A stretch of 16,948 nt of DNA, taken from the NCBI RefSeq assembly GCF_009811555.1, contig NZ_BLIN01000009.1:1-16948 (forward strand), written 5' to 3'. This document shows positions 50-16,948 of this stretch, in pieces. The first letter of the stretch is position 1. Each line of letters begins with the position of its first letter. The notes below the pieces were generated by a model. That model did no database searches. It worked only from the letters and a program-made list of their open reading frames with translations, and was not told where the DNA came from. This DNA is from Streptomyces caniferus (GTDB lineage Bacteria; Actinomycetota; Actinomycetes; Streptomycetales; Streptomycetaceae). The translations under genes and the position numbers were made by a program.

Positions 50-98
50 GCTTGAGCAGTCCCCTTCCTCGGGCCGTGACCGCACCGCGGCCGGTCGT

Positions 99-617
99 TC
101 AGAGCGCGCCCGCGGAGGCGCTCGCGCCGCCGGACGGAGTGGCGGCCGCGGCCCGCTCCACGAGCCCAGGGAAGGCTACGCCGCTGCCGCGCCAGCGCAC
201 CGCCCGCACTGCCGCCTCGCGCAGCGCGGCCGCCGCCTCCGTGCGCCGGGCCGCGCCGCCGGCCCGTACGAGATCCGCGTAGACGGCGGCCAGCCGGTCC
301 TCCAGCTCCGCCGCCAGCCGGACCGCGGCGGCCGCGTCCGGAACGGGGAAGGGCAGTTCGTAGGCGGCGGCCGAGGCCCGCGGCGTACCGCCCAGGTCGC
401 GCACCACGCGGCGCAGCGCGTCGCGGCGCGCACGGTGCCCGTCGTACGCCGCCTGGGCCTCCTTGCGCCGGTCCCCGGCGATCCGGCCGCCGACCACGCC
501 GTAGCCGTAGACCGCCGCATGCTCGGCGGCCAGTGCCGCCTGTACCGCCGTCAGCTCGTCGTGCCCGCTGTCCGCGTCCGCGCGGCTTTTCCTGCCGTGA
601 ACTGCTGTGGTCCTCAT
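99..617 (-). CDS. Ferritin-like DUF4439 domain protein
   Basis: About 172 residues, mostly alpha-helical and Ala/Arg-rich. The N-terminal half has the DUF4439 signature: LQAALAAEHAAVYGYG-like helix (here VQAALAAEHAAVYGYGVVGG) followed by an Arg-rich helix with AYDGHRARRDALRR, then AAAYELPFPV and AAELEDRLAAVYADLV. This is the pattern of ferritin-like four-helix bundles in actinomycetes; the Glu and His residues could bind metal, but no enzymatic role is known to me. I chose ATG at 617 because it overlaps the stop of the upstream lipoprotein gene as ATGA, implying translational coupling, and has GAAGGGG upstream; GTG at 623 is an alternative. No signal peptide is seen, so it is probably cytoplasmic. 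Family assignment is fairly sure; function is not. Confidence 0.8.
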   Translation of the reverse strand: MRTTAVHGRKSRADADSGHDELTAVQAALAAEHAAVYGYGVVGGRIAGDRRKEAQAAYDGHRARRDALRRVVRDLGGTPRASAAAYELPFPVPDAAAAVRLAAELEDRLAAVYADLVRAGGAARRTEAAAALREAAVRAVRWRGSGVAFPGLVERAAAATPSGGASASAGAL

Positions 618-1222
618 GCGCACGCCCCTTCGCCGGTCCTTGCCCTCCGCGGTGCCGCCGGACCCGTCATCCGGCCCGCTCCGCCAAGATACGCATGTGC
701 CGCACCGGCCGCCGCGACCGAGGCGAGCAGCCGGGCCAACTCCGGGGGTGCGCCGGTCAGCGCCTTGGTGCGGACGTCGGAGAGCTTGCGCTCCGCATCG
801 GCCAGCGCCGCACGTGCGGCCCGTTCGTCCCGGGGGACCTGGGGACCGGACGGCCGCTGGGAGCCGTGCGGCGCGGGTCCGGACGCGGGCGCACCGGCTT
901 CGCGCGCCGGGCCGTCGGAGGCGTCACCCTCGGGGGAGGGGGCAGCCCGGTCCTTGCCGAACGCCTCGGCGTGCCGGGCGACTTCGGCGCGCAGCGGGCG
1001 CAGCCGCGGCTCCAGGGACGGATGCGCGGCCAGCGTCGCGTCGTAGCGCGCCAGCAGGGTCGTACTGTCGCGGGCGGAGCGCTCGCGCAGCCGCTCGGCG
1101 GCGGAGGAGTGTTCGGTCCGGTCGGGGCCGGAGTCCTCGGAGCAGCCCGTCAGCAGCGCCACGCCCCCGAGGGCGGCGCCGGCCAGCAGGGTCCTTCTGC
1201 GCGTGAGCGCCACTTTCGGCAC
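614..1222 (-). CDS. Putative Tat-exported lipoprotein
   Basis: About 202 residues. The N-terminus is a twin-arginine-type signal (ALTRRRTLLAGAALGG) running into a lipobox LLTGC with Cys at about residue 27, so the mature protein should be lipid-anchored outside the membrane. The rest is helical and Ala/Arg/Glu-rich (LRPLRAEVARHAEAFGK; ERAARAALADAERKL) with a Pro/Gly/Ser-rich linker around residues 95-130; no catalytic motif is recognised. The start is GTG at 1222; GTG at 1213 is possible. Its stop overlaps the start of the ferritin-like gene, so the two are probably made together, and they may work together at the cell surface, though the partner has no signal peptide. It diverges from rimP across a 152-base gap. 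Confidence 0.75.
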   Translation of the reverse strand: MPKVALTRRRTLLAGAALGGVALLTGCSEDSGPDRTEHSSAAERLRERSARDSTTLLARYDATLAAHPSLEPRLRPLRAEVARHAEAFGKDRAAPSPEGDASDGPAREAGAPASGPAPHGSQRPSGPQVPRDERAARAALADAERKLSDVRTKALTGAPPELARLLASVAAAGAAHAYLGGAGRMTGPAAPRRARTGEGACA

Positions 1223-1266
1223 GTTGCACTTCCCGGGGTCCTTTCGTAGTGATCACCGCAGGCGAG

Positions 1267-1296
1267 AGTATCCGTGACCACCCACCGAATCGTCAG
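1267..1296 (-). promoter_or_regulatory. Candidate promoter in the divergent lipoprotein/rimP gap
   Basis: On the minus strand CTGACG (1296-1291) and GATACT (1272-1267) are 18 bases apart, a fair match to a sigma-70/HrdB-type -35/-10 pair facing the lipoprotein gene. On the plus strand TAGGCT at 1314-1319 could be a -10 for rimP, but no good -35 sits 17 bases upstream. Both are guesses from motif spacing only. Confidence 0.3.
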
Positions 1297-1374
1297 TACC
1301 CCGCCGGAACCGATAGGCTTTGACCCGACACACGACCCACCCACAACAGCACACGCGGCCGAGGAGTCACCCGG

Positions 1375-1926
1375 ATGAGCACCACCCAGAGCGAGAGGCT
1401 GCGCGGATTGCTTGAACCGCTCGTCGCCGCGCGAGACCTGGATCTGGAAGAGATCGAGGTGACACCGGCAGGCAAGCGGCGGGTGCTGAGGATCGTGGTC
1501 GATTCCGACGAGGGCGTCCAGCTGGACGAGTGCGCCGAGCTGAGCCGAGAGGCCTCGCAGGTCCTGGACGACTCCGATGTGATGGGCGGCGCCCCGTACA
1601 CCCTCGAGGTCACCTCTCCCGGCGCCGACCGCCCGCTGACCGAGCTGCGGCACTACCGCCGCGCCGTCGGCCGCCTGATCAAGGCCCAACTGACCGCCGA
1701 GGCAGGCGCCGGCGAGCTGGTGGCGCGGATCATCGCGGTCGACGAATCCGGGCTGGACCTCGAGGTGCCGGGCGTCAAGGGCCGTAAGCCGACCGCCCGT
1801 CGGGTCTCCTTCGACGAGATCGCCAAGGCGCGTGTCGAGCTGGAGTTCAACCGCAAGTCCGACAAGCGTGACGCACAGCAGGACGAGAAGATCGACGAGA
1901 ACGACGAGAACAAGGAGGAGGCGTAG
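1375..1926 (+). CDS. rimP: Ribosome maturation factor RimP
   Basis: A 183-residue protein, intact. RimP binds the 30S precursor and is needed for assembly around the central pseudoknot and S12. The N-terminal domain shows the family features: [21 protein letters not shown], then [31 protein letters not shown], and the hallmark [14 protein letters not shown] (about residues 79-92). The C-terminal SH3-like domain follows, ending [17 protein letters not shown]. Streptomycete copies add an acidic/charged tail; here it runs about 25 residues and is rich in Asp, Glu and Lys. ATG at 1375 has GAGGAG at 1361-1366. It is first in the rightward cluster; its stop is two bases before the nusA GTG, so they are cotranscribed and probably coupled. 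Confidence 0.95.
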
Positions 1927-1928
1927 CC

Positions 1929-2920
1929 GTGGATATCGACATGAGTGCCCTGCGGGGACTGGTGCGGGAGAAGGAGATCTCGTTCGACCTGCTGGTCGAG
2001 GCGATCGAGTCGGCCTCCTCATCGCATACCACCGCACCGAGGGCAGCCGCCGTCGGGCGCGGGTCGAGCTGGACCGCAACACCGGTCATGTGACGGTGTG
2101 GGCGAAGGAGGACCCGGAGGACCTGGAGGAGGGCGCCGAGCCCCGCGACTTCGACGACACTCCCTCCGGCTTCGGCCGGATCGCGGCGACCACCGCCAAG
2201 CAGGTCATCCTGCAGCGGCTGCGGGACGCCGAGGAGGAGATCACCTTCGGCGAGTTCGCCGGGCGTGAGGGCGACGTCATCACCGGCGTCGTCCAGCAGG
2301 GCAAGGACCCCAAGAACGTGCTGGTGGACATCGGCCCGATGGAGGCCATGCTGCCGGTGCAGGAGCAGGTCCCCGGCGAGGACTACGCGCACGGCACCCG
2401 GCTGCGCTCGTACGTCGTACGGGTGGCCAAGGGCGTCCGCGGCCCGTCCGTGACGCTGTCGCGCACCCACCCCAATCTGGTGAAGAAGCTCTTCGCCATG
2501 GAGGTCCCGGAGATCGCGGACGGCTCGGTGGAGATCTCCGCCATCGCCCGCGAGGCCGGCCACCGCACCAAGATCGCCGTACGGTCCACCCGCTCCGGCC
2601 TGAACGCCAAGGGTGCCTGCATCGGCCCGATGGGCGGCCGGGTGCGCGCCGTGATGGCCGAGTTGCACGGCGAGAAGATCGACATCGTGGACTGGTCGGA
2701 CGACCCGGCCGAGCTGGTGGCGAACGCGCTGTCGCCCGCCCGGGTCAGCAAGGTCGAGGTCGTGGACCTGGCGGCACGCTCCGCCCGGGTCACCGTCCCC
2801 GACTACCAGCTGTCACTGGCCATCGGCAAGGAAGGGCAGAATGCCCGGCTCGCCGCCCGTCTCACGGGCTGGCGGATCGACATCCGTCCGGACACCGAGC
2901 AGCCCGCACCGCAGGACTGA
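1929..2920 (+). CDS. nusA: Transcription termination/antitermination protein NusA (frameshift as written)
   Basis: NusA binds RNA polymerase and nascent RNA and modulates pausing, termination and antitermination. Start is GTG at 1929 ([18 protein letters not shown]), with AAGGAGGAG at 1912-1920 inside the end of rimP. As written the frame breaks near 2014: GAGTCGGCCTCCTC should carry one more C to give the conserved [14 protein letters not shown], and the correct frame then runs to the stop at 2920. Corrected length is about 330 residues, normal for actinobacterial NusA. Domains after the break: N-terminal polymerase-binding domain, S1 domain (from [11 protein letters not shown]), KH1 (around [21 protein letters not shown]) and KH2 (around [20 protein letters not shown]). 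The C-terminal acidic repeats of E. coli are absent, as usual here. The single missing base is most simply a sequencing error. Confidence 0.93.
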
Positions 2921-2941
2921 GGCCGTCCCGGAGGGGCGGCG

Positions 2942-2978
2942 GCGCCGCGGCACCCGAAAATCGGTGGTGCCGCGGCGC
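2942..2978 (+). terminator. 13-bp GC hairpin between nusA and ylxR
   Basis: A perfect 13-bp stem (2942-2954 with 2966-2978, GCGCCGCGGCACC) closes an 11-base loop 21 bases after the nusA stop. There is no T-run after it, so it may be a leaky terminator, an attenuator, or an RNA-processing/stability hairpin separating nusA from ylxR-infB. Confidence 0.55.
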
Positions 2979-3055
2979 TCCGACCGGAATTCTGAGCAGC
3001 CGTTCCGCCTTTACCCCATCGGGGTCGGGCCGGCGCGGGGAGGTAGACTTAAGCA

Positions 3056-3352
3056 GTGTCTGGCCGGACGCATGCCCGCGCATGCCCTGAGCGAACCTGT
3101 CTGGGATGCCGGGAGCGAGCGGCCAAGGGCGATTTGCTGCGCATCGTGGAGATCGAGGGTGAGTGTGCCCCCGATCCTCGCGGTACGCTGCCCGGCCGGG
3201 GTGCTTACGTGCACCCGACACTGGTCTGCCTCGACCTGGCGGTTCGCCGCCGGGCGTTCAACCGGGCCTACCGGGCCCGGGGACCGTTCGACACGACGGA
3301 TTTGCGTCGGTTCATCGAACGGACGCCCGTCGAGCAGCCGCCGTTGCAATAA
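3056..3352 (+). CDS. ylxR: YlxR family RNA-binding protein (DUF448)
   Basis: A 98-residue protein, intact. YlxR (also called RnpM in Bacillus) is a small RNA-binding protein encoded between nusA and infB in many bacteria and linked to modulation of RNase P. The family pattern is clear: RTCLGCRERAAKGDLLRIV near the N-terminus (the R-C-x-x-C-R core), then DPRGTLPGRGAYVHP, and CLDLAVRRRAFNRAYR near the middle. Start GTG at 3056 has GGGGAGG at 3037-3043, a slightly long spacing of 12. It lies 135 bases after nusA, beyond a GC hairpin, and 162 bases before infB, so it could have its own regulated transcript level. Confidence 0.92.
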   Translation: MSGRTHARACPERTCLGCRERAAKGDLLRIVEIEGECAPDPRGTLPGRGAYVHPTLVCLDLAVRRRAFNRAYRARGPFDTTDLRRFIERTPVEQPPLQ

Positions 3353-3376
3353 CGCACAGCAGCAAGAAACGCACAG

Positions 3377-3394
3377 CGCACGGAAAACCGTGCG
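3377..3394 (+). promoter_or_regulatory. Small hairpin in the ylxR-infB leader
   Basis: A 7-bp stem (CGCACGG with CCGTGCG) closes an AAAA tetraloop, 25 bases after the ylxR stop. It has no T-run. It may be a leader RNA element or a weak terminator for ylxR. Confidence 0.4.
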
Positions 3395-3430
3395 GTCAGT
3401 ACCTCGCGAGTCGGAAGTAGGTCGAGATTG

Positions 3431-3462
3431 CGATGAGCACTCGATGAGTACGCGATGAGTAC
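3431..3462 (+). repeat. Three 10-base CGATGAGYAC repeats in the infB leader
   Basis: CGATGAGCAC (3431-3440), CGATGAGTAC (3442-3451) and CGATGAGTAC (3453-3462) recur every 11 bases, about one helical turn, 50-85 bases upstream of the infB start. Each contains an ATGAG, so upstream micro-starts are also possible. Role unknown; a protein-binding site or leader RNA element is plausible. Confidence 0.6.
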
Positions 3463-3479
3463 GCCCATGAAGTAGCGAC

Positions 3480-3510
3480 GGTCCGGTGGACAACCCGGAC
3501 CTAGAAGGAG
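3480..3510 (+). promoter_or_regulatory. Hairpin abutting the infB ribosome binding site
   Basis: GGTCCGG (3480-3486) pairs with CCGGACC (3495-3501) around an 8-base loop. The stem ends one base before the Shine-Dalgarno AGAAGGAG (3503-3510), itself four bases before the infB GTG at 3515. It could tune ribosome access to infB. Confidence 0.5.
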
Positions 3511-3514
3511 CGAA

Positions 3515-6500
3515 GTGGGCTAAGGTCCGGGTATACGAACTCGCCAGGAGTTCGGCGTTGAGAGCAAGGTCGTCATCGGCCAAGCTCCAAGAACTTGGTG
3601 AATTCGTCCGTTCGGCGTCCTCGACGATCGAGGCGCCGGTTGTTCGCAAGCTGACCGACGCTTTCCAGGCAGGCAGCGGCAATGGTCGCGCCGCCGGAAG
3701 CCCGCAGCGCCGCGCAAGTCGGACCCCCGCAGAAGCGATCCGCGCCGTCTCCGGCGCAGGCCGGGGGCACCTCCCCTGCCCCCAAGGCAGCGGGGGAACG
3801 TCCTGCTGCACCGAAGCCGGGCGCCCCCAAGCCTGGCCCCGCGGCTCCGGCAGCCCCCGAGCACCGAAGGCCCCCGAGGCACCGGTGGCTCCCAAGCGCA
3901 CTCCCCGCCGCCGGCCCACCCGGGCCTCGCGCCCCAACCCGGCGCGCCCGCGGCACCAAAGCCCGCTCCGGCCGCCCCCGCGCAGCCGAGTTCCAGGCTC
4001 CGCCGTCCGCGCCGGCCGCTCCCGCCGCCGGCCAGTCGGCTCCCCGTCCCGGTGCCCCCGGCCCCGCGTCCCCCGTGGCGGCAGCGGTCCGGCCGCCCCG
4101 CCGTCGCGCGTTCCCGGTGGCGAGCGTCCGGCCCCGCGTCCCGGTGGCCGTCCCTCCGGCCCCCGTCCGGGGCAAACAAACACGTTCACTGTCCGGCGGG
4201 CTCCCACGGGCATCGGCCCGTCCGCAGGCCCCCCGTCCGGTGGCGCCCCGCGTCCCGGCGGCCAGGGTAGGTCCCGGCGGTCCGCGTCCGCAGGGCGCGG
4301 CCAGGGCGGTCCCCGTCCCCAGTGGCGGTCAGGGCGGCGCGCGTCCACACCCCCGGTGGTATGCCCGTCCGCAGGGTGACGCTCCCGGTGGCGCCCCGCG
4401 TCCCGGCGGTGGGCGGCGGTAACCCGCCCGAACCCGGCATGATGCCGCAGCGTCCGCTGCCGGCCCGCGTCCGGGCCCCGCGGTGGCGGCGGTCGCGGTC
4501 CCGGCGGTGCCGGTCGTCCCGGTGGTGGCGGCGGCGGTCGTCCGGGTGGCGGCGGCGGTTTCGCCGGTCGTCCCGGTGGTGGCGGCGGCGGTCGTCCGGG
4601 TGGCGGCGGCGGTTTCGCCGGTCGTCCCGGTGGCGGCGGTCCCGGTGGTGGCGGCGGCTTCGGCGGTCGTCCCGGCTTCGGTGGGCGTCCCGGCGGCCCC
4701 GGTGGCCGTGGTGGCACGCAGGGTGCGTTCGGCCCGTCCCGGCGGTCCGGCGCGTCGTGGCCGCAAGTCGAAGCGGCAGAGGCGTCAGGAGTACGAGGCC
4801 ATGCAGGCCCCGTCGGTGGGCGGCATCATGCTGCCCCGCGGCAACGGTGCGACGGTTCGCCTGTCGCGCGGTGCCTCGCTGACGGACTTCGCCGAGAAGA
4901 TCAACGCCAACCCGGCGTCGCTGGTCCAGGTCATGCTGAACCTCGGCGAGATGGTCACCGCGACCCAGTCGGTCTCCGACGAGACCCTCCAGCTGCTCGC
5001 CGACGAGATGAACTACGTCGTCGAGATCGTCAGCCCGGAGGAGGAGGACCGCGAGCTGCTCGAGTCCTTCGACATCGACTTCGGTGAGAACGAGGGCGGC
5101 GAGGACATGCTCGTCGCGCGTCCGCCGGTGGTGACCGTCATGGGTCACGTCGACCACGGTAAGACCCGACTGCTCGACGCGATCCGCAAGACGAACGTCA
5201 TTGCGGGCGAGGCCGGCGGCATCACCCAGCACATCGGTGCCTACCAGGTCGCGACCGAGGTCAACGACGAAGAGCGGCGCATCACCTTCATCGACACCCC
5301 CGGTCACGAGGCGTTCACCGCCATGCGTGCCCGTGGTGCCAAGTCGACCGACATCGCGATCCTCGTGGTGGCGGCCAACGACGGTGTCATGCCGCAGACG
5401 ATCGAGGCCCTGAACCACGCCAAGGCGGCCGACGTGCCGATCGTGGTCGCGGTCAACAAGATCGACGTCGAGGGCGCCGACCCGACCAAGGTGCGCGGCC
5501 AGCTCACCGAGTTCGGTCTGGTGGCCGAGGAGTACGGCGGCGACACCATGTTCGTCGACATCTCCGCCCGTGAGGGTCTGAACATCGAGCAGCTGCTCGA
5601 GGCCGTGGTCCTGACCGCGGACGCCTCGCTCGACCTGCGCGCCAACGCGGAGCAGGACGCGCAGGGCATCGCGATCGAGGCCCACCTCGACCGTGGCCGC
5701 GGCGCCGTGGCGACCGTCCTGGTCCAGCGCGGCACGCTGCGCGTCGGCGAGACGATGGTCGTCGGCGACGCGTACGGCCGAGTCCGTGCGATGTTCGACG
5801 ACAAGGGCAACAACGTCGAGGAAGCGGGTCCGTCGACCCCCGTCCTGGTCCTGGGTCTGACCAACGTCCCGGGCGCCGGCGACAACTTCCTGGTCGTCGA
5901 CGAGGACCGTACGGCCCGTCAGATCGCCGAGAAGCGCGCGGCGCGCGAGCGCAACGCCGCCTTCGCCAAGCGCACCCGCCGGGTGTCCCTCGAGGACCTG
6001 GACAAGGTGCTCAAGGCCGGCGAGGTCCAGCAGCTCAACCTCATCATCAAGGGTGACGCTTCTGGTTCCGTCGAGGCCCTGGAGTCCTCGCTGCTCCAGC
6101 TCGACGTCGGCGAAGAGGTCGACATCCGGGTGCTGCACCGCGGCGTCGGTGCGGTCACGGAGACCGACATCAACCTGGCGTCCGGCTCCGACGCGATCGT
6201 CATCGGCTTCAACGTGCGCGCCGAAGGCCGTGCCACGCAGATGGCCGAGCGCGAGGGCGTCGACGTCCGGTACTACTCGGTCATCTACCAGGCGATCGAG
6301 GAGATCGAGGCGGCCCTCAAGGGCATGCTCAAGCCGGAGTACGAGGAGGTCGAGCTCGGTACCGCGGAGATCCGCGAGGTCTTCCGCTCGTCCAAGCTCG
6401 GCAACATCGCGGGTGTGCTCATCCGCTCCGGCGAGGTCAAGCGCAACACCAAGGCGCGCCTCATCCGCGACGGCAAGGTGGTCGCGGAGGACCTCAACAT

Positions 6501-6642
6501 CCAGGGTCTGCGCCGGTTCAAGGACGACGTCACCGAGATCCGCGAAGGCTTCGAGGGCGGTATCAACCTCGGAAACTTCAACGACATCAAGATCGACGAC
6601 GTCATCGCGACGTACGAGATGCGCGAGAAGCCGCGCGGCTGA
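3515..6642 (+). CDS. infB: Translation initiation factor IF-2 (5' third scrambled by indels)
   Basis: IF2 is the GTPase that brings fMet-tRNA to the 30S subunit and promotes subunit joining. GTG at 3515 begins an actinomycete IF2 N-terminus (AKVRVYELA, then [20 protein letters not shown]), but the frame is broken several times: an extra G in GTGGGCTAAG, a missing A near 3543, an extra C near 3577, many indels through the Pro/Ala- and Gly-rich linker (3700-4730), and an extra C near 4731. From about 4735 to the stop at 6642 the frame is intact: second IF2_N domain, G1 GHVDHGKT (5143-5166), switch [15 protein letters not shown] (5293-5307), NKID (5455-5466), SAREG, then domains II-IV ending YEMREKPRG. 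Corrected length is about 1040 residues, normal for streptomycetes. An essential gene would not survive these breaks, so I infer sequence errors. The 3' 492 bases recur inverted at the window end. Confidence 0.95.
4512..4640 (+). repeat. 54-bp tandem duplication in the IF2 Gly-rich linker
   Basis: Bases 4512-4565 and 4566-4619 are identical 54-mers, each encoding an 18-residue unit [18 protein letters not shown] in the IF2 frame; a third, diverging copy starts at 4620. The unit lies in the disordered linker before the conserved IF2 core, where copy number is expected to vary by slippage. Confidence 0.85.
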
Positions 6643-6707
6643 TCAAGCGCGTGACTGCCCGCGCGTAGCACGGTGCACCCGAGAGGGCGGCCGGGCGACA
6701 CGCGGGA

Positions 6708-6748
6708 CCGGGGCCGGTCGGCGGAATATTTCCGTCGATCGGCCCCGG
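6708..6748 (+). terminator. 19-bp hairpin between infB and ylxP
   Basis: CCGGGGCCGGTCGGCGGAA (6708-6726) pairs with 6730-6748 over 19 positions, two of them G-U, around a TAT loop. It lies 65 bases after the infB stop and 93 bases before ylxP. There is no T-run, but this is one of the strongest stems in the window and may end or process infB mRNA. Confidence 0.65.
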
Positions 6749-6840
6749 CCGTTCCGTGTACGGTTCGAAATGACACGAACGCCCCCGGCTCACGCCGGGA
6801 GGTGCCCCTAAGGCCCCGCGGGTGGCTTGACCCGTCTTGC

Positions 6841-7134
6841 ATGTACGTAGGGACGCTGTCCTTCGACCTGCTTCTCGGCGACGTACGGTCGCTGAAGGAG
6901 AAGCGCTCCGTCGTCCGCCCGATCGTCGCCGAGCTGCACCGCAAATTCGCGGTGAGCGTCGCGGAGGTCGGGGACCAGGATCTGCACCGCAGGGCCACCA
7001 TCGGCCTGGCGGTGGTCTCCGGGGACACGGGGCATCTCACCGAAGTCATGGACCGCTGCGAGCGCATGGTCGCCGCACGGCCCGAAGTGGAACTGCTGTC
7101 GGTACACCGACGGCTGCACGGCGACGACGACTGA
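6841..7134 (+). CDS. DUF503 protein, YlxP-like
   Basis: A 97-residue protein, intact. It matches the DUF503/YlxP family (MYVGTLSFDLLLGDVRSLKEKRSVVRPIV, here split as MYVGTLSFDLLLGDV and LKEKRSVVRPI; then VAEVGDQDLHRRATIGLAVVSGD and CERMVAARPEVELLSV). The family usually sits between infB and rbfA, as here, and has a small ferredoxin-like fold; it has been suggested to act near ribosome assembly, but the biochemical role is not settled. ATG at 6841 is chosen because homologues begin MYVGTL; the Shine-Dalgarno is weak (GGGTGG about 18 bases upstream), so it may be poorly translated or coupled otherwise. It is 66 bases upstream of rbfA. Confidence 0.88.
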   Translation: MYVGTLSFDLLLGDVRSLKEKRSVVRPIVAELHRKFAVSVAEVGDQDLHRRATIGLAVVSGDTGHLTEVMDRCERMVAARPEVELLSVHRRLHGDDD

Positions 7135-7199
7135 CCCGGGGACCGGGCAGGCCGCCGCCGGTGGAAGCACAATTGTGGAAGAAAGAAGGAGAAGGACCA

Positions 7200-7652
7200 G
7201 TGGCCGACAATGCGCGGGCGAAGAAGCTGGCGGACCTCATCCGGGAGGTGGTCGCCCAGAAGCTGCAGCGCGGAATCAAGGACCCGCGGCTCGGTTCGCA
7301 CGTGACCATCACGGACACCCGGGTCACCGGCGACCTGCGGGAGGCTACGGTCTTCTACACGGTCTACGGCGATGACGAGGAGCGGGCCAGCGCCGCCGCC
7401 GGGCTGGAGAGCGCCAAGGGCATCCTGCGCTCCGCGGTCGGGGCCGCGGCGGGGACCAAGTTCACGCCCACCCTGGCCTTCGTGCCGGACGCCCTGCCGG
7501 AGAACGCCAAGACGATCGACGACCTGCTGGACAAGGCACGGGCCTCGGACGCCAAGGTGCGCGAGGTCTCCTCGGGCGCCGAGTACGCCGGCGAGGCCGA
7601 CCCGTACCGCAAGCCGGGCGAGGACGACGACGAGGGCACCGCGGCAGAATGA
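7200..7652 (+). CDS. rbfA: 30S ribosome-binding factor RbfA
   Basis: A 150-residue protein, intact. RbfA binds the 30S subunit near 16S helix 1 and helps late maturation and cold adaptation. The KH-like core is clear: ARAKKLADLIREVVAQKLQ, then GIKDPRLGSHVTITDTRVT, DLREATVFYTVYGDDEER and LRSAVGAAAGTKFTPTLAFV, followed by the typical DDLLDKA segment. The C-terminal tail after residue 115 is charged (SSGAEYAGEADPYRKPGEDD) as in other actinomycetes. GTG at 7200 follows AAGGAGAAGGA (7186-7196). Its TGA overlaps the truB ATG as ATGA, so the two are translationally coupled. A frameshifted inverted copy lies at 15445-15900. Confidence 0.94.
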   Translation: MADNARAKKLADLIREVVAQKLQRGIKDPRLGSHVTITDTRVTGDLREATVFYTVYGDDEERASAAAGLESAKGILRSAVGAAAGTKFTPTLAFVPDALPENAKTIDDLLDKARASDAKVREVSSGAEYAGEADPYRKPGEDDDEGTAAE

Positions 7653-8632
7653 AGCGTGAGAGCAACAAGCCCATCCAGAGGGGCGAGCGCGAGGCGCTCT
7701 CCGGCAAGGGTGGTGGTGGGCGACGGGCGGGCCTTGTCATCGTCGACAAGCCGGCCGGCTTCACTTCGCACGACGTGGTGGCGAAGATGCGCGGTATGGC
7801 GCGCACCCGCCGGGTCGGGCACGCCGGCACCCTCGACCCGATGGCGACGGGCGTGCTCGTCCTGGGCATCGAGCGGGCCACCAAGCTGCTCGGCCACCTC
7901 GCGCTGACCGAGAAGGAGTACGTCGGCACGATCCGGCTCGGCCAGACGACGATCACCGATGACGCCGAGGGCGAGCTCATCACGTCGAAGGCGGCGCACG
8001 GGCTCGCCCGCGAGGACATCGACGCGGTGGTCGGCCGGCTGTCCGGCGCGATCATGCAGATCCCGTCGAAGGTCAGCGCCATCAAGATCAACGGCAAGCG
8101 GTCGTACTCACGGGTCCGCGACGGCGAGGACGTGGAGATCCCGGCCCGGCCGGTCACCGTCTCCTCGTTCGTGGTGCACTCCGCGCACGAGGCCGAGGCC
8201 GAGGACGGCACCCCGGTGACCGATCTGCTGGTCTCCGTCGAGTGCTCGTCCGGTACGTACATCCGCGCCCTGGCCCGCGACTTGGGGGAGGGACTCGGGG
8301 TCGGCGGTCATCTGACGGCGCTGCGCCGCACCCGCGTCGGCCCGTACAAGCTGGACCGGGCGCGCACCCTCGACCAGCTCCAGGCCGCCGTGGACGACCC
8401 CGAGGGGGACGGCCTGCCGGTCATGCCGCTCGGGGACGCGGCCGCCGCGGCGTTCACCCGCTGGGACGTGCCCGAGGCACAGGCCCGGCTGCTGCTCAAC
8501 GGCGCACGGATCCCGATGCCGCTGTTCGAGGGCACCGGCCCGGTCGCGGCGTTCGGACCGGACGGCCGGTTCCTCGCACTGGTGGAGAACCAGGGCGGGA
8601 AGGCGAAGAGCCTGGCGGTGTTCGCGGTCTGA
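7649..8632 (+). CDS. truB: tRNA pseudouridine(55) synthase TruB
   Basis: A 327-residue protein, intact. TruB isomerises U55 in the T-loop of tRNAs and also helps tRNA folding. Seen in order: GLVIVDKPAGFTSHDVV (residues 28-44), the catalytic motif VGHAGTLDPMATGVL with the nucleophile Asp at about residue 63, KEYVGTIRLGQTTITDD, the IPSKVSAIKINGKRSY motif (about 145-160), CSSGTYIRALARDLG and LTALRRTRVGPY, then a C-terminal RNA-binding part (GARIPMPLFEGTGPVAAF, FLALVENQGGKAKSLAVF). ATG at 7649 overlaps the rbfA stop. It is the last gene of the cluster; a strong terminator begins 24 bases after its stop. An inverted copy at 14462-15448 keeps the catalytic block but is frameshifted elsewhere. Confidence 0.96.
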   Translation: MKRESNKPIQRGEREALSGKGGGGRRAGLVIVDKPAGFTSHDVVAKMRGMARTRRVGHAGTLDPMATGVLVLGIERATKLLGHLALTEKEYVGTIRLGQTTITDDAEGELITSKAAHGLAREDIDAVVGRLSGAIMQIPSKVSAIKINGKRSYSRVRDGEDVEIPARPVTVSSFVVHSAHEAEAEDGTPVTDLLVSVECSSGTYIRALARDLGEGLGVGGHLTALRRTRVGPYKLDRARTLDQLQAAVDDPEGDGLPVMPLGDAAAAAFTRWDVPEAQARLLLNGARIPMPLFEGTGPVAAFGPDGRFLALVENQGGKAKSLAVFAV

Positions 8633-8655
8633 GGGCCGTGACCCGACACTCCTGG

Positions 8656-8699
8656 GGCCGGGCCCGGCGGCGCGACAAGCGCCCCGGGCCCGGCCTTTT
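8656..8699 (+). terminator. Intrinsic terminator after truB
   Basis: GGCCGGGCCCGG (8656-8667) pairs with 8684-8695; after a one-base bulge five more pairs (GGCGC with GCGCC) close a GACAA loop, and TTTT follows at 8696-8699. It starts 24 bases after the truB stop and should end the rimP-truB transcript. Confidence 0.85.
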
Positions 8700-8992
8700 G
8701 CCTGCCGTACGCGGTCGTCGGCGGGCGCCCCGGGAGGCGGGTGGGGCCTCCGGCTGCCCGGGGCGCCCGAGGCCCCACCGGCCTCCGGCCGCCCGGACGG
8801 AGACGGCACGTGGGCCCGGGTCGCCCCTCCCCGCCCGTCGTCTCGATCCGGTGTGGTTCCGGACATTCACTCATTCGGTGAGGCGCTCGAAGTGAATCAA
8901 GGCGTGGAGGGGGGCGCGTTGGAACGGGTCCCTGTCGAGACGATCACCGCCTGCTTACCGTTCGGAGGACGGACAGGGCGAGAGGACCGGCG
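8700..8992 (+). other. Gene-free gap upstream of the STAND gene with two palindromes
   Basis: No credible gene is seen. GGGCGCCCCGGG (8723-8734) pairs with 8757-8768 around a loop containing AGGC/GCCT, a possible second terminator. ATTCACT (8865-8871) and AGTGAAT (8891-8897) are a perfect 7-bp inverted repeat 19 bases apart, just where an operator or promoter for the next gene would lie. No convincing -35/-10 pair was found. Confidence 0.5.
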
Positions 8993-11218
8993 ATGGCATT
9001 GCTGGATGCCGATGCGGACACGGCACTGGTGCGGATCCGCGATCTGGCAGGTCGGACGCGCGGTACGGGGTTCCTCGCGGACCACGACGGCACCGTGATC
9101 ACCAGCCACGAAGCGGTGGACGGGGCGGCACAACTGGTGCTGCAACCCATGGCGGACGGCGCGGGAAGCGGCGCGGCCGGGGGCGGCGGATGGACGTGCG
9201 TGGTGGCAGCAGACGCCCTCACGCCCCTTCCGGAGGCCGGGCTCGCCCTCGTCAAGGCCGGCGATTTCGGGCCACACCGGCTCGTGCCGCTGCCCATCGC
9301 CGCGGGCCGCCCGGACCCGGGCACCGCGGCACGGCTGTGGGCGGGCGGCTGGCTGGACGGCACGATCGTCGGGCCGGGCTCCGGGGTGATGTACACGGCC
9401 ACCCAGCGCGTCCATCTCCTCGACGAAACGCTGGAGCTCGGCCTGTGCGCCGGGGGCCGGGAGGCGCTGCGGCTGGGCGGCCCCGCGGTCGGCGGGCCGG
9501 TGCTGGACGCCCGGACCGGCGCGGTGCTCGGGGTCCTCGGCACCGCGCTGCACCCCCAGGCCCCCGGCCGCCCCCGGGCGGGGGAGCCCTTCGGGCGCCG
9601 GGCGGGCGGCTTCGCGATTCCGCTGCGCGCGGTCGCCGAAGCCGCGCCCCTGGGCGCCCTGGCCGCGCTGCTGGAGCGCAACGCGGCGACCGTTCCCGCC
9701 TATGGCAGCGAGCTGAACCCGGCCGGTGCGCGGCATCTTGCCGAGGTGTCGATGGGCTCCGCCGAGCGGCCGCGGCTGTGGCGCGAAGCGGTCGAACGGC
9801 CGGAGGTGGCCGCGGAGTTCACCCGCTTCGGGGCGCGCCACGGGACGGCAGAGGCGTGCGTGCTGGGACTGGTGGGGGAGCCGGGGTCCGGGCGGAGCAC
9901 GGAGCTGGCCGGGCTCGCGGCCCGCCGGGCACAGGGCCCGGACGCCGCCCCGACCGTCTGGCTGCGCGGTGCGGAGCTGCGGTCCGGCGACGACGGGGTG
10001 CGCACGGCCGTGGAGCGCGCCTTGCGGTCCGCCGGCCGGATCGTCGCCGGGGCGGGCCGTACGGCCGGTGACCCGGCGGACACCACCGCCCAGGGCGTGG
10101 CACGGGCGGCGTCCGCGGCCGGACGTCCGCTGCTGGTGCTCCTCGACGGGCCGGAGGAGATGCCGTCGGCCCTGGCGCAGGGGGAACGGCTCGCCGAGTG
10201 GACCGCGGCGAGCGCCGACTGGCTGTGCGGCGCCGGGGCGCGGCTGGTGATCGCCTGCCGCCCCGAGTACTGGGAGCGGGCCGGTGCGCTCTTCCCGCCC
10301 GGCCTGCTGCACCGGCCGCTGCGCCCGGCCCCCGCGCTGCCCCCCTGCGTGGAACTCGGCGACCTTCCCGAGGAGGCGGCGGAGCGTGCCCGCGCCCGCT
10401 ACGGCCTGCCGCCCGGCGCACCGGCCGCGCGGGACGCCCGTCATCCCCTGGCGCTGCGGCTGCTCGCGGAGGTCGGCGCGGCGCTCCCCAAGAGCGGTGC
10501 GGCCGGGAGGGGAGTCGACGAGCCGGCCGGCCTCGGTGCACCCGACCGCCACCAGATCTTCGACGCCCACCTGGACCTGGTGTGCCTGCGCATCGCCGTA
10601 CGGCTCGCGGCCGCCCACCGGCCCGAACTGCGCGGCACCGCCGTACGCCGGCTGGCCGCCCAGGTCGCCGGCCAGGTGCACGAGGCGGCTCGGCGCGCTC
10701 TCGGCCCCGGGCCGGGCGCGCTGGACCGTGCCTCCTTCGAGGAGGTGTTCCCGCGGGAGCCCGGCTGGGCCGGTGCGGTGCTGGCCGAGGGCCTGCTGGT
10801 GCGGGCCGGCACCGGATACCGCTTCGCCCACGAGGAGTTCGCGGAGTGGCTGCAGGGCGCCCATGTCGACCTCGACCTGCTGCCCGTCCCCGGACACCGC
10901 GTCGGACCGGCCGTCCAGGCCCTGCTGCTGCTCGGCAGGCGGGAGGGGACGGTGCAACTGACCTTCAGGCTGGCCGAGTTGGTGCCGATGGCGACCGCCC
11001 CCGCGGCCGGCCCGGCGGCCGCACGCGCCGTGGACGGCCGCTGGTGGGCCGCGCATCTGCTGTCCGGCGTGCTGCGCCGGGTCCCCGACGCGAGGCCGTA
11101 CACGGCGTGCTGCGGCTGCTCGCCGACCGGATCACGGAACGGTCCCTGCGGGCGGGCGGCTTCGGACACACGGGCCTGGAGGCGTTCGGGCCGTGGTTCT
11201 GGGAGCGGCTGGCACTGA
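8993..11218 (+). CDS. Trypsin-like fold + STAND/AAA-type NTPase protein (3' end frameshifted, gene incomplete)
   Basis: The literal frame gives 741 residues from ATG 8993, with a GAGAGGA ribosome site at 8980-8986. Residues 1-225 resemble a trypsin-like domain: TGFLADHDGTVITSHEAV carries a His (about 39), but the usual catalytic Asp site reads GLALVKA and the Ser site reads PAVGGPVLD (Val where GxSGGP has Ser), so I infer a dead protease. Residues 290-430 are a P-loop NTPase: GEPGSGRST (Walker A, Arg301 replacing Lys), PLLVLLDGPEE (Walker B, Asp385) and RLVIACRPEYW. A helical region with RFAHEEFAEWLQG follows, as after STAND/NACHT modules. The last 38 codons are out of frame: one G is missing near 11106, and the inverted copy has it, restoring VLRLLADRIT. 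Corrected, the frame stays open to the fold at 11522 (about 843 residues), so the true C-terminus is not in the window. Probably a cytoplasmic signalling or conflict-type protein. Confidence 0.78.
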   Translation: MALLDADADTALVRIRDLAGRTRGTGFLADHDGTVITSHEAVDGAAQLVLQPMADGAGSGAAGGGGWTCVVAADALTPLPEAGLALVKAGDFGPHRLVPLPIAAGRPDPGTAARLWAGGWLDGTIVGPGSGVMYTATQRVHLLDETLELGLCAGGREALRLGGPAVGGPVLDARTGAVLGVLGTALHPQAPGRPRAGEPFGRRAGGFAIPLRAVAEAAPLGALAALLERNAATVPAYGSELNPAGARHLAEVSMGSAERPRLWREAVERPEVAAEFTRFGARHGTAEACVLGLVGEPGSGRSTELAGLAARRAQGPDAAPTVWLRGAELRSGDDGVRTAVERALRSAGRIVAGAGRTAGDPADTTAQGVARAASAAGRPLLVLLDGPEEMPSALAQGERLAEWTAASADWLCGAGARLVIACRPEYWERAGALFPPGLLHRPLRPAPALPPCVELGDLPEEAAERARARYGLPPGAPAARDARHPLALRLLAEVGAALPKSGAAGRGVDEPAGLGAPDRHQIFDAHLDLVCLRIAVRLAAAHRPELRGTAVRRLAAQVAGQVHEAARRALGPGPGALDRASFEEVFPREPGWAGAVLAEGLLVRAGTGYRFAHEEFAEWLQGAHVDLDLLPVPGHRVGPAVQALLLLGRREGTVQLTFRLAELVPMATAPAAGPAAARAVDGRWWAAHLLSGVLRRVPDARPYTACCGCSPTGSRNGPCGRAASDTRAWRRSGRGSGSGWH

Positions 11219-11522
11219 CCGACGAGGACCGGATGGATCTGCTGCGCCGCCTGCTGCCGGCGGACGGACCTCCTGGTGGGGCGGCGCGGCGCGTGGCGGG
11301 CGTGCGGCCAGGCGGGCGGGCAGGCGTGGGGACGGGGGCTGCGGGGGGTGGCGGCCGGTGGGGCGGATGGTGCGGTGTCGCGGTCCGTGTGGGTGCCGTC
11401 GCCGGCCGGGCCGGTGTCGTCCGGGGCGGTGTCGTCCGGACCGGTGCTGTCCGGATCGTCGCCGTCCGGGGCGGTGCCGTCTGGATCGCGTCGTCCGCCG
11501 GTGTCGCCGGGTCCGAGCTGCC
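11219..11522 (+). other. Low-complexity end of the left arm
   Basis: In the corrected STAND frame this begins sensibly (WFWERLALTDEDRMDLLRR ends near 11255) and then becomes Gly/Arg/Val-rich. Bases 11395-11500 are built of diverged GGTGTCGTCCGG-like units. More than one frame is open on each strand; the minus strand reads an Asp/Thr/Pro-rich string (GPDDTAPDDTGPAGDG). I cannot say which frame, if any, is real here, because indels differ between the two arms. Confidence 0.5.
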
Positions 11523-11554
11523 ACGGGCAGCGAGAGCGGGCCGCCGGACCCCAC
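11523..11554. other. 32-base spacer at the fold of the inverted repeat
   Basis: The left arm ends GAGCTGCC at 11522 and the right arm starts GGCAGCTC at 11555. The left arm end is itself a short hairpin, GCTGCC-ACG-GGCAGC (11517-11531), so GGCAGC occurs at 11526 and again at 11555. Such a short inverted repeat is a likely snap-back point. Confidence 0.8.
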
Positions 11555-14105
11555 GGCAGCTCGGACCGCGGCGACACGCGGTCCGGACGACGCCGATCCA
11601 GACGGCACCGCCCCGGAAGCGGCGACGATCCGGACAGCACCGGTCCGGACGACACCGCCCCGGACGACACCGGCCCGGCCGGCGACGGCACCCACACGGA
11701 CCGCGACACCGCACCATCCGCCCCACCGGCCGCCACACCACCCCGCAGCCCCCGTCCCCACGCCTGCCCGTCCCGCCTGGCCGCACGCCCGCCACGCGCC
11801 GCGGCCGCCCCACCAGGAGGTCCGTCCGCCGGCAGCAGGCGGCGCATGCATATCCCTCCGTCTCGTCGGTCAGTGCAGCCGCTCCCAGAACCACGGCCCG
11901 AACGCCCTCCAGGCCCGGTGTCCGAAGCCGCCCGCCCGCAGGGACCGGTCCGTGATCCGGTCGGCGAGCAGCCGCAGCACGCCCGTGTACGGCCTCGCGT
12001 CGGGGGACCCGGCGCAGCACGCCGGACAGCAGATGCGCGGCCCACCAGCGGCCGTCCACGGCGCGTGCGGCCGCCGGGCCGGCCGCGGGGGCGGTCGCCA
12101 TCGGCAACCAACTCGGCCAGCCTGAAGGTCAGTTGCACCGTCCCCTCCCGCCTGCCGAGCAGCAGCAGGGCCTGGACGGCCGGTCCGACGCGGTGTCCGG
12201 GGACGGGCAGCAGGTCGAGGTCGACATGGGCGCCCTGCAGCCACTCCGCGAACTCCTCGTGGGCGAAGCGGTATCCGGTGCCGGCCCGCACCAGCAGGCC
12301 CTCGGCCAGCACCGCACCGGCCCAGCCGGGCTCCCGCGGGAACACCTCCTCGAAGGAGGCACGGTCCAGCGCGCCCGGCCCGGGGCCGAGAGCGCGCCGA
12401 GCCGCCTCGTGCACCTGGCCGGCGACCTGGGCGGCCAGCCGGCGTACGGCGGTGCCGCGCAGTTCGGGCCGGTGGGCGGCCGCGAGCCGTACGGCGATGC
12501 GCAGGCACACCAGGTCCAGGTGGGCGTCGAAGATCTGGGTGGCGGTCGGGTGCAGCCGAGGCCGGCCGGCTCGTCGACTCCCCTCCCGGCCGCACCGCTC
12601 TTGGGGAGCGCCGCGCCGACCTCCGCGAGCAGCCGCAGCGCCAGGGGATGACGGGCGTCCCGCGCGGCCGGTGCGCCGGGCGGCAGGCCGTAGCGGGCGC
12701 GGGCACGCTCCGCCGCCTCCTCGGGAAGGGTCGCCGAGTTCCACGCAGGGGGGCAGCGCGGGGGCCGGGCGCAGCGGCCGGTGCAGCAGGCCGGGCGGGA
12801 AGAGCGCACCGGCCCGCTCCAGTACTCGGGGCGGCAGGCGATCACCAGCCGCGCCCCGGCGCCGCACAGCCAGTCGGCGCTCGCCGCGGTCCACTCGGCG
12901 AGCCGTTCCCCCTGCGCCAGGGCCGACGGCATCTCCTCCGGCCCGTCGAGGAGCACCAGCAGCGGACGTCCGGCCGCGGACAGCCGCCCGTGCCACGCCC
13001 TGGGCGGTGGTGTCCGCCGGGTCACCGGCCGTACGCCCGCCCCGGCGACGATCCGGCCGGCGGACCGCAGGCGCGCTCCACGGCCGTGCGCACCCCGTCG
13101 TCGCCGGACCGCAGCTCCGCACCGCGCAGGCCAGACGGTCGGGGCGGGCGTCCGGGCCCTGTGCCCGGCGGGCCGCGAGCCCGGCCAGCTCCGTGCTCCG
13201 CCCGGACCCCGGCTCCCCCACCAGTCCCAGCACGCACGCCTCTGCCGTCCCGTGGCGCGCCCCGAAGCGGGTGACTCCGCGGCCACCTCCGGCCGTTCGA
13301 ACCGCTTCGCGCCACAGCCGCGGCCGCTCGGCGGAGCCCATCGACACCTCGGCAAGATGCCGCGCACCGGCCGGGTTCAGCTCGCTGCCATAGGCGGGAA
13401 CGGTCGCCGCGTTGCGCTCCAGCAGCGCGGCCAGGGCGCCCAGGGGCGCGGCTTCGGCGACCGCGCGCAGCGGAATCGCGAAGCCGCCCGCCCGGCGCCC
13501 GAAGGGCTCCCCCGCCCGGGGGCGGCCGGGGGCCTGGGGGTGCAGCGGCGGTGCCGAGGACCCCGAGCACCGCGCCGGTCCGGGCGTCCAGCACCGGCCC
13601 GCCGACCGCGGGGCCGCCCAGCCGCAGCGCCTCCCGGCCCCCGGCGCACAGGCCGAGCTCCAGCGTTTCGTCGAGGAGATGGACGCGCTGGGTGGCCGTG
13701 TACATCACCCCGGAGCCCGCCCGACGATCGTGCCGTCCAGCCAGCCGCCCGCCCACAGCCGTGCCGCGGTGCCCGGTCCGGGCGGCCCGCGGCGATGGGC
13801 AGCGGCACGAGCCGGTGTGGCCCGAAATCGCCGGCCTTGACGAGGGCGAGCCCGGCCTCCGGAAGGGGCGTGGAGGGCGTCTGCTGCCACCACGCACGTC
13901 CATCCGCCGCCCCCGGCCGCGCCGCTTCCCCGCGCCGTCCGCCATGGGTTGCAGCACCAGTTGTGCCGCCCCGTCCACCGCTTCGTGGCTGGTGATCACG
14001 GTGCCGTCGTGGTCCGCGAGGAACCCCGTACCAGTGCGCGTCCGACCTGCCAGATCGCGGATCCGCACCAGTGCCGTGTCCGCATCGGCATTCCAGCAAT
14101 GCCAT
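11555..14105 (-). pseudogene. Frameshifted inverted copy of the STAND-protein gene
   Basis: The ATG corresponding to 8993 is at 14105, and the frame breaks after five codons (MALLE). Fragments of the same protein recur in all three minus frames: the Walker A GEPGSGRST, the HEEFAEWLQG block and the end GVLRLLADRIT. About 12106-12537 is identical to the left arm. In this copy the frame ends at WFWERLH with a stop at 11870, where the left arm lacks the stop. It also carries a third G (TACACGGGCGTG) that repairs the left-arm frameshift. I read this as the same locus read with errors, not a second gene. Confidence 0.85.
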
Positions 14106-14461
14106 CGCCGGTCCTCTCGCCTGTCCGTCCTCAGAACGGTAAGCAGGCGGTGATCGTCTCGACAGGGACCCGTTCCAACGCGCCCCCCTCCACGCCTTGA
14201 GTCACTTCGAGCGCCTCACCGAATGGAGTGAATGTCCGGAACCACACCGATCGAGACGACGGGCGGGGAGGGGCGACCCGGCCCACGTCCGTCTCCGTCC
14301 GGCGGGCCGGAGGCCGGTGGGGCCTCGGGCGCCCCGGGCAGCCGGAGGCCCCACCCGCCTCCCCGGGGCGCCCGCCGACGACCGCGTACGGCAGGCAAAA
14401 GGCCGGGCCCGGGGCGCTTGTCGCGCCGCCGGGCCCGGCCCAGGAGTGTCGGTCACGGCCC
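14106..14461 (-). other. Inverted copy of the truB-STAND gap including its terminator
   Basis: Holds no gene. The truB terminator is preserved on the minus strand at 14397-14440 with AAAA at 14397-14400. The ATTCACT/AGTGAAT palindrome is damaged: one half reads AGTGACT and a C is inserted after ATTCACT. Compare 8633-8992. Confidence 0.8.
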
Positions 14462-15448
14462 TCAGACCGCGAACACCGCAGGCTCTTCGCCTTCCCGCCC
14501 TGTGTCTCCACCAGTGCAGAGGAACCGGCCGTCCGGTCCGAACGCCGCGACCGGGGCCGGTGCCCTCGAACCAGCGGCATCGGGATCCGTGCGCCGTTGA
14601 GCAGCAGCCGGGCCTGTGCCTCGGGCACGTCCCAGCGGGTGAACGCCGCGGCGGCCGCGTCCCCGAGCGGCCATGACCGGCAGGCCGTCCCCCTCGGGGT
14701 CGTCCACGGCGGCCTGAGCTGGTCGAGGGTGCGCGCCCGGTCCAGCTTGTACGGGCCGACGCGGGTGCGGCGCAAGCGCCGTCAGATGACCGCCGACCCC
14801 GAGTCCCCCCCCAAGTCGCGGGCCAGGGCGCGGATGTACGTACCGGACGAGCACTCGACGGAGACCAGCAGATCGGTCACCAGGGGTGCCGTCCTCGGCC
14901 TCGCGCTCGTGCGCGGAGTGCACCACGACGAGGAGACGGTGACCGGCCGGGCCGGATCTCCACGTCCTCGCCGTCGCGGACCCGTGAGTAAGACCGCTTG
15001 CCGTTGATCTTGATGGCGCCTGACGCTTCGACGGGATCTGCATGATCGCGCCGGACAGCCGGCCGACCACCGCGTCGATGTCCTCGCGGGCGAGCCCGTG
15101 CGCCGCCTTCGACGTGATGAGCTCGCCCTCGGCGTCATCGGTGATCGTCGTCTGGCCGAGCCGGATCGTGCCGACGTACTCCTTCTCGGTCAGCGCGAGG
15201 TGGCCGAGCAGCTTGGTGGCCCGCTCGATGCCCAGGACGAGCACGCCCGTCGCCATCGGGTCGAGGGTGCCGGCGTGCCCGACCCGGCGGGTGCGCGCCA
15301 TACCGCGCATCTTCGCCACCACGTCGTGCGAAGTGAAGCCGGCCGGCTTGTCGACGATGACAAGGCCCGCCCGTCGCCCCACACCACCCTTGCCGGAGAG
15401 CGCTCGCGCTCGCCCCTCTGGATGGGGCTTGTTGCTCTCACGCTTCAT
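14462..15448 (-). pseudogene. truB: Frameshifted inverted copy of truB
   Basis: ATG at 15448 and stop at 14462 match the intact gene; the length is 987 bases against 984. The block encoding VDKPAGFTSHDVV through SGAIMQIPSK, with the catalytic GTLDPMATG, is identical, but the frame is lost near 15025 (after IPSK) and drifts in and out to the end (GRFLCTGGDTG instead of GRFLALVENQG). The N-terminus also differs (NKPHPEGRARALSG). As written it could not make TruB. Confidence 0.88.
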
Positions 15449-15900
15449 TCTGCCGCGGTGCCCTCGTCGTCGATCCTCGCCCGGCTTGCGGTACGGGGGT
15501 CGGCCTCGCCGGCGTACCTCGCGCCCGAGGAGACCTCGCGCCAACTTGGCGTACCGAGGCCCGTGCCTTGTCCAGCAGAGTCGTCGATCGTCTTGGCGTT
15601 CTCCGGCAGGGCGTCCGGCACGAGGCCAGGGTGGGCGTGACTTGGTCCCCGCCGCGGCCCCGACCGCGGAGCGCAGAGCCCTTGGCGCTCTCCAGCCCGG
15701 CGGCGCGCTGGCCCGCTCCTCGTCATCGCCGTAGACCGTTAGAATGACCGTAGCCTCCCGCAGGTCGCACGGTGAGCCCGGGTGTCCGTGATGGTCACGT
15801 GCGAACGAGCCGCGGGGTCCTTGATTCCGCAGCTGCAGCTTCTGGCGACCACCTCCCGGATGAGGTCCGCCAGCTTCTTCGCCCGCGCATTGTCGGCCAC
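15445..15900 (-). pseudogene. rbfA: Frameshifted inverted copy of rbfA
   Basis: The GTG at 15900 and TGA at 15445 mirror the intact gene, with the same ATGA overlap to the truB copy. The first 20 codons match (ADNARAKKLADLIREVVA), then indels follow in quick succession: a C lost, a T gained, a C gained and a G lost within about 45 bases. It is 456 bases long against 453. Not translatable as RbfA. Confidence 0.87.
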
Positions 15901-15965
15901 TGGTCCTTCTCCTTCTTTCTTCCACAATTGTGCTTCCACCGGCGGCGGCCTGCCCGGTCCCCGGG

Positions 15966-16259
15966 TCAGTCGTCGTCGCCGTGCAGCCGGTCGGTGTACC
16001 GACAGCAGTTCCACTTCGGGGCCGTGCGGCGACCATGCGCTCGCAGCGGTCCATGACTTCGTGAGATGCCCCGTGTCCCCGGAGACCACCGCCAGGCCGA
16101 TGGTGCCCTGCGGTGCAGATCCTGGTCCCCGACCTCCGCGACGCTCACCGCGAATTTGCGGTGCAGCTCGGCGACGATCGGGCGGACGACGGAGCGCTTC
16201 TCCTTCAGCGACCGTACGTCGCCGAGAAGCAGGTCGAAGGACAGCGTCCCTACGTACAT
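15966..16259 (-). pseudogene. Inverted copy of ylxP with compensating frameshifts
   Basis: ATG at 16259 and stop at 15966 give the same 294-base length as the intact gene. The first half is identical through QDLHRRA; a C is then lost near 16107, the middle runs out of frame, and later indels restore the frame for the final LHGDDD. The equal length with a garbled middle fits random read errors. Confidence 0.85.
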
Positions 16260-16351
16260 GCAAGACGGGTCAAGCCACCCGCGGGGCCTTAGGGGCACCT
16301 CCCGGCGTGAGCCGGGGGCGTTCGTGTCATTTCGAACCGTACACGGAACGG

Positions 16352-16392
16352 CCGGGGCCGATCGACGGAAATATTCCGCCGACCGGCCCCGG
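16352..16392 (-). terminator. Inverted copy of the infB-ylxP hairpin
   Basis: Exact reverse complement of the 41-base hairpin at 6708-6748, in one of the error-free blocks of the right arm. Confidence 0.8.
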
Positions 16393-16457
16393 TCCCGCGT
16401 GTCGCCCGGCCGCCCTCTCGGGTGCACCGTGCTACGCGCGGGCAGTCACGCGCTTGA

Positions 16458-16948
16458 TCAGCCGCGCGGCTTCTCGCGCATCTCGTACGTCGCGATGACG
16501 TCGTCGATCTTGATGTCGTTGAAGTTTCCGAGGTTGATACCGCCCTCGAAGCCTTCGCGGATCTCGGTGACGTCGTCCTTGAACCGGCGCAGACCCTGGA
16601 TGTTGAGGTCCTCCGCGACCACCTTGCCGTCGCGGATGAGGCGCGCCTTGGTGTTGCGCTTGACCTCGCCGGAGCGGATGAGCACACCCGCGATGTTGCC
16701 GAGCTTGGACGAGCGGAAGACCTCGCGGATCTCCGCGGTACCGAGCTCGACCTCCTCGTACTCCGGCTTGAGCATGCCCTTGAGGGCCGCCTCGATCTCC
16801 TCGATCGCCTGGTAGATGACCGAGTAGTACCGGACGTCGACGCCCTCGCGCTCGGCCATCTGCGTGGCACGGCCTTCGGCGCGCACGTTGAAGCCGATGA
16901 CGATCGCGTCGGAGCCGGACGCCAGTTGATGTCGGTCTCCGTGACCGC
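16458..16948 (-). pseudogene. infB: Inverted partial copy of the infB 3' end
   Basis: Encodes the C-terminal 140-odd residues of IF2 (from [15 protein letters not shown] to YEMREKPRG), identical to the left copy through 16458-16923. Near 16924 one C is missing (ATCAACTGGCG against ATCAACCTGGCG), so the frame breaks just before the window end. The copy continues beyond the window. Confidence 0.9.

Follow-up and report, generated by a model that had tools for sequence, protein, structure and literature searches.

In long-read sequencing, fold-back (duplicated-inversion) artefact reads consist of a strand followed by its complement, with the second segment starting no more than about 30 bases from the end of the first, nearly no foreign sequence in between and a straight reference path (Heinz et al., PMC12870357). 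As described in that report, such reads occur across nanopore DNA library types and make up about 0.55–0.6% of Oxford Nanopore Technologies genomic reads, and library preparation is suspected to be where they arise. Hairpin adapters that go undetected in PacBio and 2D nanopore data, described by the Canu authors as a familiar fault of reads to be dealt with by trimming, likewise leave the template and its complement in one read, from which a spare contig is possible (PMC5411767). In living cells, fold-back priming at short inverted repeats after a break leads to inverted duplications in yeast lacking Sae2 or the nuclease activity of Mre11, as that work describes (PMC10622511). Here, we analysed a long inverted repeat at positions 6151–16948 of contig C9 (NZ_BLIN01000009.1) of Streptomyces caniferus, in an assembly (GCF_009811555.1) of 9,147,309 bases and 10 contigs; the window is this whole contig, complete at 16,948 bases. 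We conclude that the inverted repeat is almost certainly a technical fold-back and not a structure of the chromosome.

C9 resembles the published fold-back reads in the order of strand and complement, the short distance between the segments, the near absence of foreign sequence and the straight reference path, but it is a partly corrected contig, not a read, and its arms are unequal, whereas another contig of the assembly, C10, is symmetrical (compare PMC12870357). It shares the succession of template and complement with the undetected-adapter reads, and it could be the spare contig expected from them; in contrast, its turn carries no recognised adapter remnant (compare PMC5411767). Contigs C10 and C1 fold on natural hairpins, which is the geometry of snap-back priming as reported for yeast (PMC10622511), while C9 has neither unique flanks nor a run to the chromosome end, the path of contig C2 is intact at the locus and the hairpin at the turn of C9 is weak.

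A single mirror axis with a short spacer

A blastn search of the window against itself gave a single long inverted alignment that pairs 6151–16948 with 16948–6151 over 10,889 columns at 97.8% identity, with 53 mismatches and 182 gap bases. The inverted repeat that an earlier sequence-only reading had described over this interval was thus recovered in one piece, and its constant sum of paired coordinates (given as 23077–23100) also held: all 3,874 exact reverse-complement 20-mer pairs of the window sum to 23082–23103, which corresponds to one mirror axis. In 20 shuffled versions of the second arm, no 20-mer was shared at all.

Arm 1 of the repeat (6151–11522, plus strand) corresponds to C2 149866–144488 on the minus strand, and arm 2 (11554–16948, minus strand), its reverse complement, corresponds to C2 144488–149866 on the plus strand at ~98% identity, with scattered insertions and deletions (indels), mostly of one base. 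Arm 1 tracks C2 to C9 11522 (C2 144488) and the mirror point of that C2 base falls, by arithmetic, near C9 11554, in agreement with the spacer of about 32 bases reported before. The fold (11523–11553) spans ~31–32 bases, of which the first ~11 are garbled and the following ~20 are ordinary C2 bases that occur once. Arm 2 can be placed securely from ~C9 11534 (C2 144467), and the gap between this point and the end of arm 1 at C2 144488 is a distance on the contig, not on a read. In the same way, the turn lies at ~68% of the contig, not of a read, while the default symmetry filter of a published fold-back tool, which is optional, is set to within 10% of the read midpoint.

All of C9 is contained in contig C2

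Two alignments to C2 jointly cover all of C9. C9 1–11522 matches C2 156050–144488 on the minus strand with 99.1% identity, and C9 11505–16948 matches C2 144441–149866 on the plus strand with 97.9% identity; C9 traces C2 from 156.05 kb down to ~144.46 kb, where it turns and returns as far as 149.87 kb. When 1–6150, 6151–8000 and 8001–16948 were searched against the own genome, long matches were confined to C9 itself and C2, and all other rows were shorter than ~200 bases. The first of these segments, the outer part of arm 1 (1–6150, plus strand; C2 156050–149867, minus strand, 99% identity), has no mirror copy in the window, and its 14 other rows were short. C2 passes straight through the fold point over 40 kb (126000–165999) without N, and its inverted repeats at 144–157 kb are short hairpins only. 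We found no unique flanking DNA beyond either arm, C9 lying wholly within C2 144441–156050. Since all parts of C9 are found straight through in C2, no base of C9 represents new chromosome. The contig stops exactly at 16948, where a contig end had been suspected; the fold-back is not something left at the end of a contig, as had been proposed, because the whole of C9 consists of it.

The junction was also compared with other genomes. A 26-letter junction query had no match among genome contigs, a set from which the own genome may be left out. Of 60 other genomes of the genus, 52 gave some match to a 451-base junction query, the matches listed covering at most ~150 query bases each; one among those listed spans the fold (query 170–263, 74%). 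We take these for G+C-rich chance matches.

These observations bear on the possibility that C9 records a real palindromic rearrangement in part of the culture. In that event, a break at C2 ~144.46 kb would have been followed by fold-back priming, for which yeast provides the precedent as described (PMC10622511), or by end fusion, and the product would be predicted to have C2 sequence flanking the break on either side. The probable correction of arm 1 by several reads, described below, is in line with such a molecule. However, no flank of C9 extends beyond C2 and C2 is continuous through the point, and on these grounds we rejected a biological palindrome; most differences between the arms, moreover, are one-base indels, which disrupt core genes. 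We regard a rearrangement of this kind, together with its predicted product, as very improbable.

Large linear actinobacterial chromosomes carry terminal inverted repeats, and the repeat could in principle be one of these, or a telomere, of a linear chromosome or plasmid. This is extremely improbable: the locus comprises the rimP-nusA-infB-rbfA-truB core region and lies 144 kb into the 1.56-Mb contig C2, which itself lacks the repeat. This position among core genes led us to reject a terminal inverted repeat, and the straight path of C2 refutes it unless C2 is misassembled.

Sequence differences and broken gene copies

The differences between C9 and C2 are sequencing-like. Over C9 4734–11105, 6,372 consecutive bases are identical to C2, and 55 of the 61 differences in arm 1 (1–11488) are located at 3501–4750, the G+C-rich start of infB. 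The G+C content is 82% at 4001–4500, at the start of infB where arm 1 gathers most of its errors. Arm 2 shows 104 scattered differences from C2 when the junction is included and 96 when it is not. The second arm had been called indel-riddled, and it does differ throughout; it is not, however, the sole error-rich part of C9, arm 1 being poor at 3501–4750. Among the 78 one-base indels of arm 2, 57 lie in or beside the same base, a count that the free gap placement of the aligner may inflate; 500 random placements gave 36.5 on average and never more than 49. Insertions exceed deletions in arm 2 (46 versus 35), while deletions prevail in arm 1 of C9 and in both arms of C10 and of C1.

Within the part that is present twice, arm 1 is near perfect and arm 2 is not. 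The 6,372-base identity to C2 does not agree with the idea of a bare single read, and because of it part of C9 was presumably corrected with other reads. The accuracy of arm 1 would then reflect correction by reads that agreed with C2 and arm 1 and failed to fit arm 2. In a nanopore study, accuracy is described to drop after the turn in inverted duplicates (PMC7229812). The two sibling fold-backs of the assembly also have more events in the second arm than in the first as written (32 versus 15 in C10 and 58 versus 36 in C1), but we give this excess little weight because these are corrected consensus sequences, whose written order need not be the order of reading.

In the C2 region, the open frames of rimP, nusA, infB, rbfA and truB have 182, 329, 1051, 270 and 326 residues, respectively, and each passes the cut-off of an NCBIfam model, the rbfA model spanning only residues 123–231. 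All five lie on the plus strand in the first part of C9. The open reading frame of rimP (1375–1926; family match from the C2 copy) and nusA (1930–2920) are present once in the window, rimP without differences from C2 and nusA with one frameshifting deletion near 2013, while the full-length infB (IF-2; 3518–6642) has 55 differences; the starts of nusA and infB are placed by coordinate arithmetic. The rbfA frame (6837–7652) and the open truB frame (7649–8632) of arm 1 are free of differences from C2. Counted as alignment events against C2, frameshifting indels in arm 1 number 42 for infB and 1 for nusA, while its truB, rbfA and rimP have none; in arm 2 there are 15 for truB, 24 for the rbfA frame and 1 for the portion of infB within its reach. 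The truB copy of arm 2 (14716–15367, minus strand) is recognisable only in two pieces, both scoring below the family cut-off, beside the C2 copy and the identical copy in arm 1 of C9. Among 100 other genomes of the genus, truB is single-copy in 99 and absent in one, which is 82% complete. In line with the broken core genes described before, arm 2 has frameshifted truB and rbfA and arm 1 a frameshifted infB, while the C2 frames are open and match their families.

Two further fold-backs and the hairpins at their turns

Two other fold-backs of similar build are present in the assembly. C10 (24,135 bases) is a palindrome over its full length (1–24135 against itself, 99.7%). Both of its ends fall on the final base of C3 (1711507), and its turn, at C3 ~1699422, is in the middle of C10. 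C10 also overlaps the right end of C7 over 11.1 kb, in a search with the first 20,000 of its 24,135 bases. The right end of C1 (457120–479755) follows C2 2–11363 and then returns to C2 1, and a 31-base pattern from this turn has a single occurrence in the genome when up to 3 mismatches are allowed. C1 and C2 probably adjoin each other, with the C1 fold-back having kept them separate.

The turn of C10 carries a hairpin of ~20 bp and that of C1 one of ~23 bp, and each is the strongest of the 3,989 60-base windows in its surrounding 20 kb. With 40-base windows, C10 ranks 3 and C1 ranks 1 of 1,997, and with 100-base windows, C10 ranks 1 and C1 ranks 2 of 1,991. A strong natural hairpin of this kind was sought at the turn of C9 with 40-, 60- and 100-base windows and was not found.

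Two sibling folds on natural hairpins of ~20 bp would also be expected from rearrangements in the cells. All three fold-backs might represent real hairpin-capped chromosome breaks in the living culture, which snapped back at terminator-like short inverted repeats and were filled in, although we hold this to be highly improbable and no feature of the sequence calls for it. Only if such hairpin-capped ends are real does the fold-back have biological relevance; they would then be a bacterial counterpart of the yeast ones, caught by long reads before replication. On the other hand, C10 ends on the same C3 base on both sides. This is the product expected of a closed fragment, and random shearing of a replicated palindrome should rarely give it.

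Likely route to the fold-back

The technical fold-back is based on what is seen in the assembly, namely the redundancy with C2, the straight path of C2, the lack of unique flanks, the frameshifts and the sibling fold-backs. The redundancy, the two siblings and the frameshifted gene copies support the earlier preference for an artefactual fold-back over a real palindrome, and the inverted repeat is most likely real in the file and not in the genome. As its source we favour, with reasonable though not full confidence, a library fragment with a closed end. A sheared fragment covering C2 ~144.46–156.05 kb would have become sealed at one end, through fold-back and extension of its 3' end or through ligation of its two strands to each other. 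Read in one pass, this fragment would give one strand and then part of the other, and the assembler would retain the strand-plus-complement sequence as C9, a redundant contig. Only half of the second strand is present in C9, as might be so after an interrupted read or trimming. The hairpin ranks at the turns lend good support to closure at a strong hairpin in C10 and C1 but only weak support in C9.

The origin of the fold could alternatively be purely informatic, if a hairpin adapter or the signal gap between the strands was missed and template and complement were left unsplit. Undetected hairpin adapters are documented as described (PMC5411767), ~11 garbled bases are present at the fold, and a shorter arm 2 is what an interrupted second pass would leave. 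However, the 45-base SMRTbell adapter was not recognised at the C9 junction, where its score of 13 is below the 95% level of 14 from 500 shuffled adapters. Furthermore, the fold contains C2's own sequence, and the siblings fold on the strongest local hairpins, a preference not to be expected of an adapter. Within the technical explanation, we consider an unsplit read unlikely, though a good deal less so than any biological origin, and the origin probably lies in the library tube rather than in an unsplit adapter, with presumably few supporting reads.

Several observations weigh against the closed-fragment route and, in part, against a technical fold-back altogether. The arms are unequal (11.5 versus 5.4 kb), unlike the symmetrical fold-backs that Heinz et al. 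describe (PMC12870357), and the same report gives virtually no fold-backs in PacBio HiFi data, with three PacBio samples in all. Given the 6,372 identical bases, the consensus of arm 1 was probably built from more than one read. Finally, the hairpin at the C9 turn is weak, ranking 771 of 7,989 with 60-base windows (top 9.7%), 830 of 3,997 with 40-base windows (top 20.8%) and 108 of 3,991 with 100-base windows (top 2.7%).

Other features of the locus and the assembly

A hairpin 3' of truB in arm 1 (8722–8795) is identical to one at C2 147222–147295, and its mirror copy in arm 2 (14309–14374) was found in the blastn search of the window against itself. A scan of the window with Rfam at gathering scores gave no match. 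At the fold beside truB, C2 142726–147120 contains two long opposing open frames (1464 amino acids on the plus strand and 1370 on the minus strand). Neither these nor two further frames that we tried had a Pfam match, and at least one of the opposing frames is probably an artefact of high G+C content.

C8 repeats C1/C2 sequence. DNA that is also in C1, C2, C3 and C7 recurs in C9, C10, C8 and the tail of C1, and this repeated DNA inflates gene counts and inverted-repeat surveys of the assembly; the contamination estimate of the assembly is probably inflated too. C3 1–6675 and C5 1–6675 agree over 6,675 bases in the same orientation at 99.97%, and C6 (1–6217) repeats 6,088 bases of this sequence. 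C6 encodes a protein that matches the Mu-transposase C-terminal domain, with an integrase-core match below the cut-off, and two AAA proteins. The shared sequence is probably a two-copy transposon, which we take to be Tn7/Mu-like, that broke the assembly. The right ends of C2 and C5 overlap over ~9.57 kb at 99.98% in a joinable orientation, so these contigs could be merged.

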